64,000 nt of DNA from an uncultured Clostridia bacterium (GTDB taxonomy: Bacteria > Bacillota > Clostridia > Oscillospirales > Ruminococcaceae). Below the pieces are notes generated by a model that saw nothing but the letters and a program-made list of their open reading frames with translations, was not told the origin of the DNA and did not search any database. A program made the position numbers and the translations under genes. The stretch spans positions 42,089-106,088 of the forward strand of contig CANQWD010000006.1 in assembly GCA_947627465.1 (NCBI GenBank), in the 5' to 3' direction. This document shows positions 15,474-50,421 of this stretch, in pieces (the first letter of the stretch is position 1; each line of letters starts with the position of its first letter).

Positions 15474-15502
15474 TTGACAATTTGGCAAAAATATGATATA
15501 AT
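15474..15502 (+). promoter_or_regulatory. Strong sigma-A-type promoter upstream of tex
   Basis: TTGACA (15474-15479), 17-bp spacer, TGaTATAAT (-10 at 15497-15502). Confidence 0.75.
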
Positions 15503-15660
15503 AAGGACAGCATAATAAACTTACAGCGAAAACGTTATAGGTTGATTGAGCATATCATTGGTACTGAAAATATGGTATAATAAGGACAACGTAACAAACC
15601 TACAGCGAAAACGTTATAAGTTGGTTGCACATATCATTGGTATTGAAAATATGGTATAAT
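15490..15660 (+). repeat. Tandem 79-bp repeats with TGnTATAAT motif
   Basis: TATAAT at 15497, 15576 and 15655, exactly 79 bp apart; the two full units share most of their sequence (e.g. ACAGCGAAAACGTTATA, CATATCATTGGTA). Confidence 0.85.
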
Positions 15661-15682
15661 AAAGGCAGAGCCTTTATTATAC
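15654..15682. repeat. Perfect 13-bp hairpin containing a -10 box
   Basis: GTATAATAAAGGC-AGA-GCCTTTATTATAC. Confidence 0.85.
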
Positions 15683-15735
15683 TTTTATGTCCACGCGCAT
15701 ACGCCCACTTCGTTCGCTCCGCGCGGTAATGGACA

Positions 15736-15770
15736 ATTATACCATAAATTCTCCGAATTTATGGTATAAT
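15736..15770. repeat. Perfect 16-bp hairpin containing the tex-proximal -10 box
   Basis: ATTATACCATAAATTC-TCC-GAATTTATGGTATAAT. Confidence 0.88.
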
Positions 15771-15808
15771 AAGACGTTGAGAATAAAAAATTTTAATGAG
15801 GTGCAAAA

Positions 15809-17953
15809 ATGAATATAAACGAAACTCTTGCAAAAGAGTTTAATTTACGTCAGGAGCAGGTGGACAATACGGTAGCTCTCATTGACGATGACAAGACGAT
15901 CCCGTTTATTGCGCGTTACCGTAAGGAGCAAACGGGGTCTCTGGACGATACCGTGCTGCGCGAGCTGTCGGACAGATTAACTTATCTGCGTAATTTGCAA
16001 AAGCGCAAAGAGGAGATAGCAGCTTCCATTACGGAACAGGATAAAATGACCGACGATATCGCGGCGTCCATTGAAAAAGCAATGACGCTTGTCGAAGTCG
16101 AGGACATTTATCGTCCGTTTAAGCCTAAGCGCAAAACACGCGGTTCCGTGGCTCGCGAAAAAGGTCTGGAGCCGCTAGCGGTTATTTTGCGTGAACAGAA
16201 GTTTGATGTTGTTCCCGAAACGGAAGCGGCAGCGTTTGTGAACGAGGAAAAAGGCGTTGCAACGGCGCAGGACGCGCTTCAGGGCGCTATGGATATAATA
16301 GCCGAGGATCTGTCGGACAGCGCGGAGCTGCGCAAAAAGCTCCGTGATTTGATTTTTAAACGCGGTACGATAAGTTCCTCGGCTGCCGCTGAGGACTCAA
16401 ACGAGGTATACAAAAACTATTTCGAGTTCAGCGGCGCTGTAAGCAGACTGGCGGGACATCAGACCTTGGCTCTCGACCGCGGCGAGAAAGAGGGGCAGCT
16501 TAAAGTTGCAATAACACTGCCCGAGGGCGAGGGCGAAAGTATGTGCGTGCGCGAGTTTACGGAAAACAATTCCGAGTGCGGCAAGGTGGTTCGCGCGGCT
16601 TGCGAGGACAGTTATAAAAGGCTTATTTTCCCGTCCGTTGAGCGCGAGGTTCGCGCGGAGCTTTCGGCGAACGCTCAAGAGGGTGCTATCAAGGTTTTCG
16701 CTTCAAATCTGCGTCAGCTTCTTATGGCGCCGCCCGTTAAAGACACGGTTACTCTCGGGCTTGACCCCGGATACGCACACGGCTGCAAATGCGCGGTCGT
16801 TGACAGCACAGGCAAAGTTCTTGATACGTTTATAATTTACATAACGCGTTCGCAAGGTGAAAAAGAGCGAGCCGAGCAGATCGTTAAAAAGGCTATTGAG
16901 AAACACCACGTTTCCACGATAGCGATAGGAAACGGCACGGCTTCCCGCGAAACGGAGCAGTTTACCGCCGAGCTTATTAAAGGCATTCCCGAGAAAGTAT
17001 CTTATATGGTGGTTTCAGAAGCGGGAGCGTCGGTGTACTCCGCTTCAAAGCTCGCCGCCGAGGAATTCCCGGAGTACGATGTAAGTCTGCGCTCGGCGGT
17101 GTCAATAGCGCGGCGTTTGCAAGACCCGCTTGCAGAGCTTGTTAAAATAGACCCGAAAGCCATTGGAGTGGGACAATATCAGCACGATATGCCGAAAGCA
17201 CGTATGGACGAGGCTTTAAAGGGCGTTGTCGAGGACTGTGTGAACTCCGTGGGCGTTGACTTAAATACGGCTTCATACTCGCTTTTGTCCTACATTTCGG
17301 GAATAAACAGTGCCGTTGCAAAGAATATCGTGGCTTACCGTGAGGAAAACGGTGCGTTTACCGACAGAAAGCAGCTTATGAAAGTAGCTAAGCTGGGCGC
17401 AAAGGCGTTTGAACAATGCGCAGGCTTTTTGCGTGTTCCAAACGGCAAAAATCCGCTTGATAACACGGGAATTCACCCCGAAAGTTACAAAGCCGCGAAA
17501 ACGCTTCTTGAAAAGTGCGGTATTACATCGGAAGAGTTGGGTAGGGGAGAGGTCGTTCGCGCGAAGGTTGACAGCATTGGACTTTCACAAATTGCCGAGG
17601 AAACGGGCGCAGGTCTCCCCACTCTTCAAGATATTGTAAAGGAACTGGAAAAGCCGGGGCGCGATCCTCGCGACGAACTGCCTCCGCCTTTAATGCGAAG
17701 CGGCGACATTATGGAGCTTAAAGACTTAAAGCCCGGAATGGAGCTTATGGGTACCGTCCGCAATATTGTGGATTTTGGCGCGTTTGTGGACGTAGGCGTT
17801 CACGAGGATGGACTTGTTCACATTTCTCAGATGAGCGACCGCCGAATTAAGCATCCGTTGGAAGTCCTCAAAGTCGGGCAGGTCATCAAAGTGTGGGTTT
17901 TAGACGTCGATGAAAAGCGCGGCAGAATTTCGCTTACGATGAAGCAGCGGTGA
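15809..17953 (+). CDS. tex: Tex-family RNA-binding transcriptional accessory protein
   Basis: IPFIARYRKEQTGSLDD, TLGLDPGYAHGCKCAVVD, C-terminal S1 domain (MGTVRNIVDFGAFVDVGVHEDGLVHISQMS). Confidence 0.95.
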   Translation: MNINETLAKEFNLRQEQVDNTVALIDDDKTIPFIARYRKEQTGSLDDTVLRELSDRLTYLRNLQKRKEEIAASITEQDKMTDDIAASIEKAMTLVEVEDIYRPFKPKRKTRGSVAREKGLEPLAVILREQKFDVVPETEAAAFVNEEKGVATAQDALQGAMDIIAEDLSDSAELRKKLRDLIFKRGTISSSAAAEDSNEVYKNYFEFSGAVSRLAGHQTLALDRGEKEGQLKVAITLPEGEGESMCVREFTENNSECGKVVRAACEDSYKRLIFPSVEREVRAELSANAQEGAIKVFASNLRQLLMAPPVKDTVTLGLDPGYAHGCKCAVVDSTGKVLDTFIIYITRSQGEKERAEQIVKKAIEKHHVSTIAIGNGTASRETEQFTAELIKGIPEKVSYMVVSEAGASVYSASKLAAEEFPEYDVSLRSAVSIARRLQDPLAELVKIDPKAIGVGQYQHDMPKARMDEALKGVVEDCVNSVGVDLNTASYSLLSYISGINSAVAKNIVAYREENGAFTDRKQLMKVAKLGAKAFEQCAGFLRVPNGKNPLDNTGIHPESYKAAKTLLEKCGITSEELGRGEVVRAKVDSIGLSQIAEETGAGLPTLQDIVKELEKPGRDPRDELPPPLMRSGDIMELKDLKPGMELMGTVRNIVDFGAFVDVGVHEDGLVHISQMSDRRIKHPLEVLKVGQVIKVWVLDVDEKRGRISLTMKQR

Positions 17954-49607: not shown

Positions 49608-50421
49608 GGAGATGCTTTCCGCGCCGATTTTGGTGCGCGCCCTGATAGTCGGGATATTGGTGTCGCTTTGCGCCGCGCTGCTCGGAGTAAGTCTTGTGCT
49701 GAAGCGTTACTCGATGATAGGCGACGGCTTGTCGCACGTCGGCTTCGGAGCGTTGGCGATAGCCGCCGTAATGAACTTAGCGCCGATGGCTGTCGCTATT
49801 CCGGTGGTGATTTTGGCGGCGTTCCTGCTGCTGCGGTTGTCCTCTAACAGCAAGATAAAGGGCGATTCCGCGATAGCGCTTATCTCAACGGGAGCATTGG
49901 CTATCGGCGTTATGGCGGTTTCAATGTCTCACGGCGTGAATATCGACCTTAACAGCTACTTGTTCGGCAGCATAGTCTCGGTAAGCGGCGGCGACGTGGT
50001 GATAAGCGTCATTCTTGCGTGCGCCGTTCTGCTTATGTTCATTTTCTTCTACACGAAGATATTCGCGATAACGTTCGACGAGAGTTTCGCGAAAGCCACG
50101 GGCATTAACGTGAATCTCTACAATATGCTGATAGCGCTTCTCACCGCCGTGACTATCGTTATCGGAATGAGACTTATGGGCAGTATGCTGATCTCCAGCC
50201 TTATTATTTTCCCCGCGCTGAGTTCAATGCGTGTTTTCAAGAGTTTCAAAAGCGTGACGATATGCTCTGCGGTCATTTCCGTTGTGACGTTCGTTATTGG
50301 AATGATCATTTCATACGCCGCCGACACTCCGTGCGGAGCTTCCATAGTCTGCGTTAACATTGCGGCGTTCGCGGGATTTTTTATCGCGGGCGCACTGCTT
50401 TCGAGAAGCAAAAAGTCTTAG
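49585..50421 (+). CDS. znuB: Zinc ABC transporter permease
   Basis: YSMIGDGLSHVGFGALAIA; DIVVS-like ABC-3 permease pattern, multiple TM. Confidence 0.92.
   Translation: MRKMEILKEMLSAPILVRALIVGILVSLCAALLGVSLVLKRYSMIGDGLSHVGFGALAIAAVMNLAPMAVAIPVVILAAFLLLRLSSNSKIKGDSAIALISTGALAIGVMAVSMSHGVNIDLNSYLFGSIVSVSGGDVVISVILACAVLLMFIFFYTKIFAITFDESFAKATGINVNLYNMLIALLTAVTIVIGMRLMGSMLISSLIIFPALSSMRVFKSFKSVTICSAVISVVTFVIGMIISYAADTPCGASIVCVNIAAFAGFFIAGALLSRSKKS

Follow-up and report, generated by a model that had tools for sequence, protein, structure and literature searches.

What placed four extended -10 boxes in front of a single gene? In the window, by which we mean the whole 64,000-nt stretch of DNA from an uncultured Clostridia bacterium that was analyzed, tex is preceded by TGnTATAAT at positions 15494-15502 (TGA), 15573-15581, 15652-15660, and 15762-15770 (the latter three TGG). 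A sequence-only reading of this DNA had described these boxes, and its account of the layout was borne out. The first three are spaced by 79 bp, as 79-nt units that are 87% identical; TTGACA at 15474 and the first -10 are separated by a 17-bp spacer and match the consensus at 12 of 12 positions. The third -10 lies in a perfect 13-bp stem with a 3-nt loop and the fourth in a perfect 16-bp stem, also with a 3-nt loop, and a GTCCA...TGGAC hairpin sits between the two stems. The reading offered three interpretations: a repeat-driven promoter array, a small RNA tandem, or a structured mobile element.

Layout of the array

Downstream of the TGATATAAT promoter are three segments, two of 79 bp and one of 110 bp, each ending in TGGTATAAT. 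The single "array" is two distinct repeat families with a common boundary motif: family A (79 bp), which is present twice, and family B (119 bp), which is present once. We refer to the left and right 9-mers of B as F1 and F2, and to its internal arms as R1 and R2. The features are as follows.

15474..15479, + strand: -35 TTGACA of the original tex promoter, from the sequence and the single comparable promoter before tex in relatives
15494..15502, + strand: extended -10 TGATATAAT of the original tex promoter and target 9-mer for the first insertion, from the sequence and the empty site in relatives
15503..15581, + strand: family A insertion 1, 79 bp, last bases TGGTATAAT; a repeat with dispersed copies in its own genome and in relatives, and an empty site at another A locus
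15582..15660, + strand: family A insertion 2, 79 bp, a repeat with dispersed copies; its last bases, TGGTATAAT, are also the left 9-mer of B
15652..15660, + strand: F1, the left 9-mer (target) of family B, from the 36-copy B alignment
15652..15770, + strand: family B element including both 9-mers, 119 bp, three hairpins; 95-100% identical copies on other contigs, and covariance model matches
15654..15682, + strand: B left hairpin (F1 and internal arm R1), the perfect 13-bp stem, with compensatory changes
15688..15735, + strand: B core hairpin (TGTCC...GGACA), with compensatory changes in 12 of 15 pairs
15736..15770, + strand: B right hairpin (internal arm R2 and F2, the right 9-mer TGGTATAAT at 15762-15770), the perfect 16-bp stem, with R2/F2 co-change
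15809..17953, + strand: tex CDS, 714 aa, the gene with the invaded promoter (the name is that given by the sequence-only reading); an ORF with orthologues, relatives of the N-terminal part of its protein, in 28 of 43 genomes of the genus

Compared with shuffled sequences, the region folds strongly, both as RNA (15645-15808, z = -6.5) and as DNA (15652-15770, z = -8.5). From the sequence comparisons described below, we consider it probable that the array is a stack of two small gene-less mobile element families inserted at the tex promoter -10, with B moving as arm-guided folded DNA.

Dispersed copies and empty sites

When the host genome (2.52 Mb, 52 contigs) was searched, the array separated into families A and B. 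Further copies of the 79-bp A unit were found on contigs C45, C17, C10, C1, C18, and C15, and A is also dispersed in relatives; copies of B are present on C25, C13, C10, and C4, all of them 95-100% identical to the query consensus. The flanks of the dispersed copies are mutually unrelated, and so are the downstream genes. On C10, B is followed by A, which is the opposite of the order at tex; A and B therefore combine freely. Both are small and gene-less, well within the roughly 200 bp taken as the limit for small nonautonomous elements (bacterial MITEs in the broad sense), and both have many dispersed copies. Named relatives retrieved with the Tex protein are uncultured Clostridia, Oscillospiraceae, and Ruminococcus, and the order was accordingly taken as Oscillospirales. 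A covariance model built from 36 B copies identified B in 59 of the 394 sampled genomes of the order Oscillospirales and in 33 of 167 genera, and the architecture of B is unchanged in several Clostridia families outside the order. Tandem B copies overlap by exactly the 9-mer (9 bp), and at what appears to be a single locus two copies are present in genome G181 versus one in G439. A search for phage or plasmid carriage gave no match to the tex-locus copy.

Comparison with relatives identified the corresponding empty sites. In G066, for example (93% identity over the N-terminal part of Tex), a single promoter precedes tex, with no repeats, and TGTTATAAT ends 44 nt before the start codon. At the C25 locus, before a queA-like gene, the same relative has a single TTGAAA-17-TATAAT in place of the A-like copy and B of the window genome; at the C4 locus it has a single TTGAAT-17-TATAAT, with an identical TGGTATAAT. 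At the family A locus on C15, TTTATGATATAAT is followed directly by AGAATA in G066, whereas in the window genome (G000) TTTATGTTATAAT is followed by A and then by TATGTTATAAT and AGAATA; an empty site for family A at a locus other than tex is given by L098 versus L196. Eight recent B insertions were examined in G072, and for seven of them the empty site of a relative carries the identical 9-mer; for the eighth, relatives have TGTTATACT, TGCTATAAT, and TGATATAAT.

The genome search for the 79-bp unit and the comparison of copy number in relatives, both of which the sequence-only reading had proposed as checks, thus returned other copies and variation, and a structured mobile element is supported by the dispersed copies, the empty sites, and the differences in copy number between relatives. 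An operator or regulon interpretation of family A was rejected, given the unrelated downstream genes and an empty site. At one other tex leader (L131, from G026) a different insert, running from AAGGAAACGCTGATC... to ...ATCGGTGGTTTCTTAA, follows the TGGTATAAT of that leader; the tex promoter therefore appears to have received insertions repeatedly within the genus.

A 9-mer target and its matching arms

Both families insert directly after a pre-existing extended -10, TGnTATAAT, and have the same 9-mer at the right end. The target was characterized using 135 non-tandem B copies whose upstream flanks are all distinct. In 73 of them TTG lies 17 bp ahead of the left TATAAT; each of the other spacings between 12 and 23 bp has TTG in six copies or fewer. 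A match of at least 5/6 to TTGACA at 17 bp was found in 44 of the 135 left flanks and at none of the right ends. Native TGnTATAAT sites, a control drawn from the same retrieved sequences and not from whole genomes, have TTG at 17 bp just as often (166/300) and a flanking composition similar to that of the B targets, so recognition of a -35 element or of an open complex was rejected, and the supported target is the 9-mer itself only. The base n is nearly evenly distributed at the native sites (A, 82; G, 79; T, 75; C, 64). In these genomes TGnTATAAT is usually a promoter.

These data also bear on the proposal of a repeat-driven promoter array, which holds only as a by-product: a -10 is left at the right end by each insertion, but of the boxes before tex the first alone has a -35 at the correct spacing, and there is no good -35 at any B right end. 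That duplicated promoters and hairpins were selected as a regulatory array controlling tex and other genes is very improbable. The copies do lie upstream of genes, in the direction of the gene, and the later boxes are extended -10s; the direction, however, follows from the target, the genes downstream are unrelated to one another, the later -10s lack a -35, and the array is absent before tex in relatives.

Three conserved hairpins make up B, and its internal arms are complementary to the target and to the element's own right end. In the alignment, 98.0% of cells pair, and compensatory double changes occur in 20 of 41 pairs; the covariation score is 0.280, against a shuffle mean of 0.093, a value reached by none of 500 shuffles, while slid controls gave at most 0.048. 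Double changes (139 cells) far outnumber one-sided changes (8 cells), and G-U intermediates are almost lacking. In an RNA maintained by selection they should be more frequent; the constraint is therefore more likely to be on DNA hairpins, or on palindromes that correction keeps perfect. The small RNA tandem was not sustained: four of the five family A copies tested folded no better than their shuffled versions, a search of Rfam matched no known structured-RNA family, and the covariation of B is without intermediates of the RNA type.

The two ends of B and its arms change together. Of 134 B copies, 110 have identical F1 and F2, compared with 47 expected by shuffling, and in 104 of 128 the TGn bases are the same in F1, F2, and the complement of R2; these counts are inflated by copies related by descent and are less independent than they appear. 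Some copies occupy TAAAAT boxes (L225, L475) and have all four arms altered to fit. Within one genus, 12 of 13 T-type elements occupy TGT and all 5 A-type elements occupy TGA (p = 0.0007). Among discordant copies, 13 have an F2 that matches the complement of R2 and a different F1, and three have identical F1 and F2 with a different R2. Taken as a statistical match, this pattern suggests that arm-target pairing governs the choice of target and that F2 is brought by the element. A role for R1 as a strict guide was unsupported, as R1 is not strictly complementary to F1; the R1 T-T counts are partly an artifact of a wrong ATTATA being parsed in one genus.

Family A behaves differently in one respect: 16 of its 19 copies have matching ends, and clear hairpin arms are lacking, so that target duplication fits A better. 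A single mechanism may not apply to both families. Extended to B, this reasoning would have a trans-acting DDE-type transposase duplicate at least 9 bp at TGnTATAAT, the B arm being matched later by correction of the imperfect palindrome during replication. Such a route would account for the frequent identity of F1 and F2 in B and of the ends of A, for the three B copies in which R2 alone differs, and for the near-exclusive Watson-Crick double changes, which palindrome correction would also be expected to produce. We regard it as unlikely, since the 13 copies in which F2 follows R2 and not F1 stand against three of the opposite kind, the identical recent copies in G072 are all at TGT where duplication would have given each target's own n, and the presumed element ends have no terminal inverted repeats outside the hairpins. 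Guidance by the arms is favored because of the matching arms and TGn types together with the pre-existing targets.

Insertion and comparison with known systems

Under arm guidance, B would move as folded DNA, R2 (and perhaps R1) would base-pair with the target 9-mer to choose the site, and a putative trans-acting mobilizer would carry out cutting and joining. Each insertion leaves the host -35/-10 pair in place and adds, next to the gene, a second -10 that lacks a -35; the new right end can accept the next insertion, which gives head-to-tail arrays with a common 9-mer. Tentatively, and as a possibility we hold at somewhat less than even, mobile DNA hairpins across the Clostridia may use their own arms as guides to the extended -10, reading it base by base, with the variable position of TGn included, and insert so that the promoter survives; the promoter core would then be the very target of this mobile DNA.

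A close parallel is IS608, which inserts 3' of a tetranucleotide that is recognized by base pairing with the element (PMC5934647). Like B, members of the IS200/IS605 family (IS608, ISDra2) and their nonautonomous derivatives keep a short fixed target at the left flank, insert 3' of it, and have hairpins at both ends and no classical terminal inverted repeats. The target of B, however, is a promoter box of 9 nt rather than a tetranucleotide, its complementary arms lie within long perfect hairpins, and the target itself belongs to the end hairpin, whereas the hairpins of IS608 are subterminal. Y1 transposase (PF01797) was not detected in ten multi-copy carriers, mostly draft bins; the missing enzyme is weak evidence, because draft bins tend to lose multi-copy insertion sequences. 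Y1 transposase was rejected as the mobilizer, being undetected in the ten carriers, with the Y1 loci seen in related genomes lacking B-like ends; for these reasons, and because the target lies within the end hairpin, we do not file B under IS200/IS605. Among the right ends inspected in one genus there was no autonomous or longer parent copy, all of them being on the short core except L456, which lies beside unknown bases. IS200-like Y1 loci of the genus (for example, L161, minus strand, near 1417, and L159) carry a TGnTATAAT of their own, in which n varies; it lies between CCTCC and GGAGG arms, about 80 bp upstream of the transposase match, and is probably the transposase promoter within the left end.

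Insertion could also proceed by site-specific recombination, in which a tyrosine or serine recombinase would join a circular form bearing one TGnTATAAT core to a chromosomal TGnTATAAT, as with integron cassettes and integrating mobile elements. Recombinases of both types are common in bacteria, and the oriented insertion, the direct repeats at both ends, the core-sharing tandem arrays, and the need for core identity would all follow. No recombinase is known to be linked to the element, however, a 9-bp core that is met at many places would be unusually short for a recombinase site, and a circular form was not seen; we consider this route quite improbable. Integron cassettes combine oriented insertion beside a promoter, tandem arrays, and a folded single-strand site, and A and B resemble them in each of these respects; they differ in that A and B are gene-less, have no known linked integrase, and use many scattered targets.

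REP and BIME palindromes, which are mobilized by TnpA-REP, are also short, gene-less, intergenic, multi-copy, and sometimes tandem, and share their palindromic character with B. REPs are 20 to 50 nt long, with GTAG before the palindrome (PMC8266576), whereas B is 119 bp, with three hairpins and a fixed 9-mer site, and a GTAG-type motif is absent from the conserved positions of the 36-copy B alignment. Correia elements of Neisseria bring promoters to adjoining genes (PMC2229807, PMC10969869). They and other bacterial MITEs are, like A and B, small nonautonomous repeats, but they are bounded by terminal inverted repeats and duplicate a TA-type target, whereas A and B end in TGnTATAAT direct repeats and take an existing promoter as the target. 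The whole-element terminal inverted repeats of classical DDE MITEs were not found; inverted repeats are present only as local hairpins. Within the open-licence literature, a scope that leaves out most subscription journals, we found no earlier description of such elements.

At tex, 38 nt separate the end of the last -10, which has no good -35, from the start codon, and the first promoter retains its -35. The likely effect, as judged from the sequence, is a leader that is about 270 nt longer from the first promoter, together with extra weak -10s. If the stacked-insertion reading is correct, mobile DNA has a specific landing site in the promoters of a major group of gut bacteria, which would account for many tandem -10 boxes and structured leaders in these genomes and would give annotators a recognizable family. 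If guidance by the arms is also correct, B would be a natural system whose DNA guide exceeds the tetranucleotide of IS608 in length, and there would be good reason to look for its enzyme.

Other repeats were observed near these elements. On C17 of the host genome, at about 50253-50372 (L006:1501-1620), the left hairpin and core of B are joined at GGACAA to A sequence, without the B right hairpin, a chimera that perhaps arose by recombination between stacked copies. At the start of the same contig (L010:1-496), another repeat, with ends GGCAACACCGCACA / TGTGCGGTGTTGCC, breaks the right -10 of a family A copy; this repeat is also present upstream of tex in L132. In G072, the approximately 80 bp before one B copy (upstream of L319, query 24-103) is a further high-copy repeat, with dozens of matches across G072, G181, G439, and related genomes.
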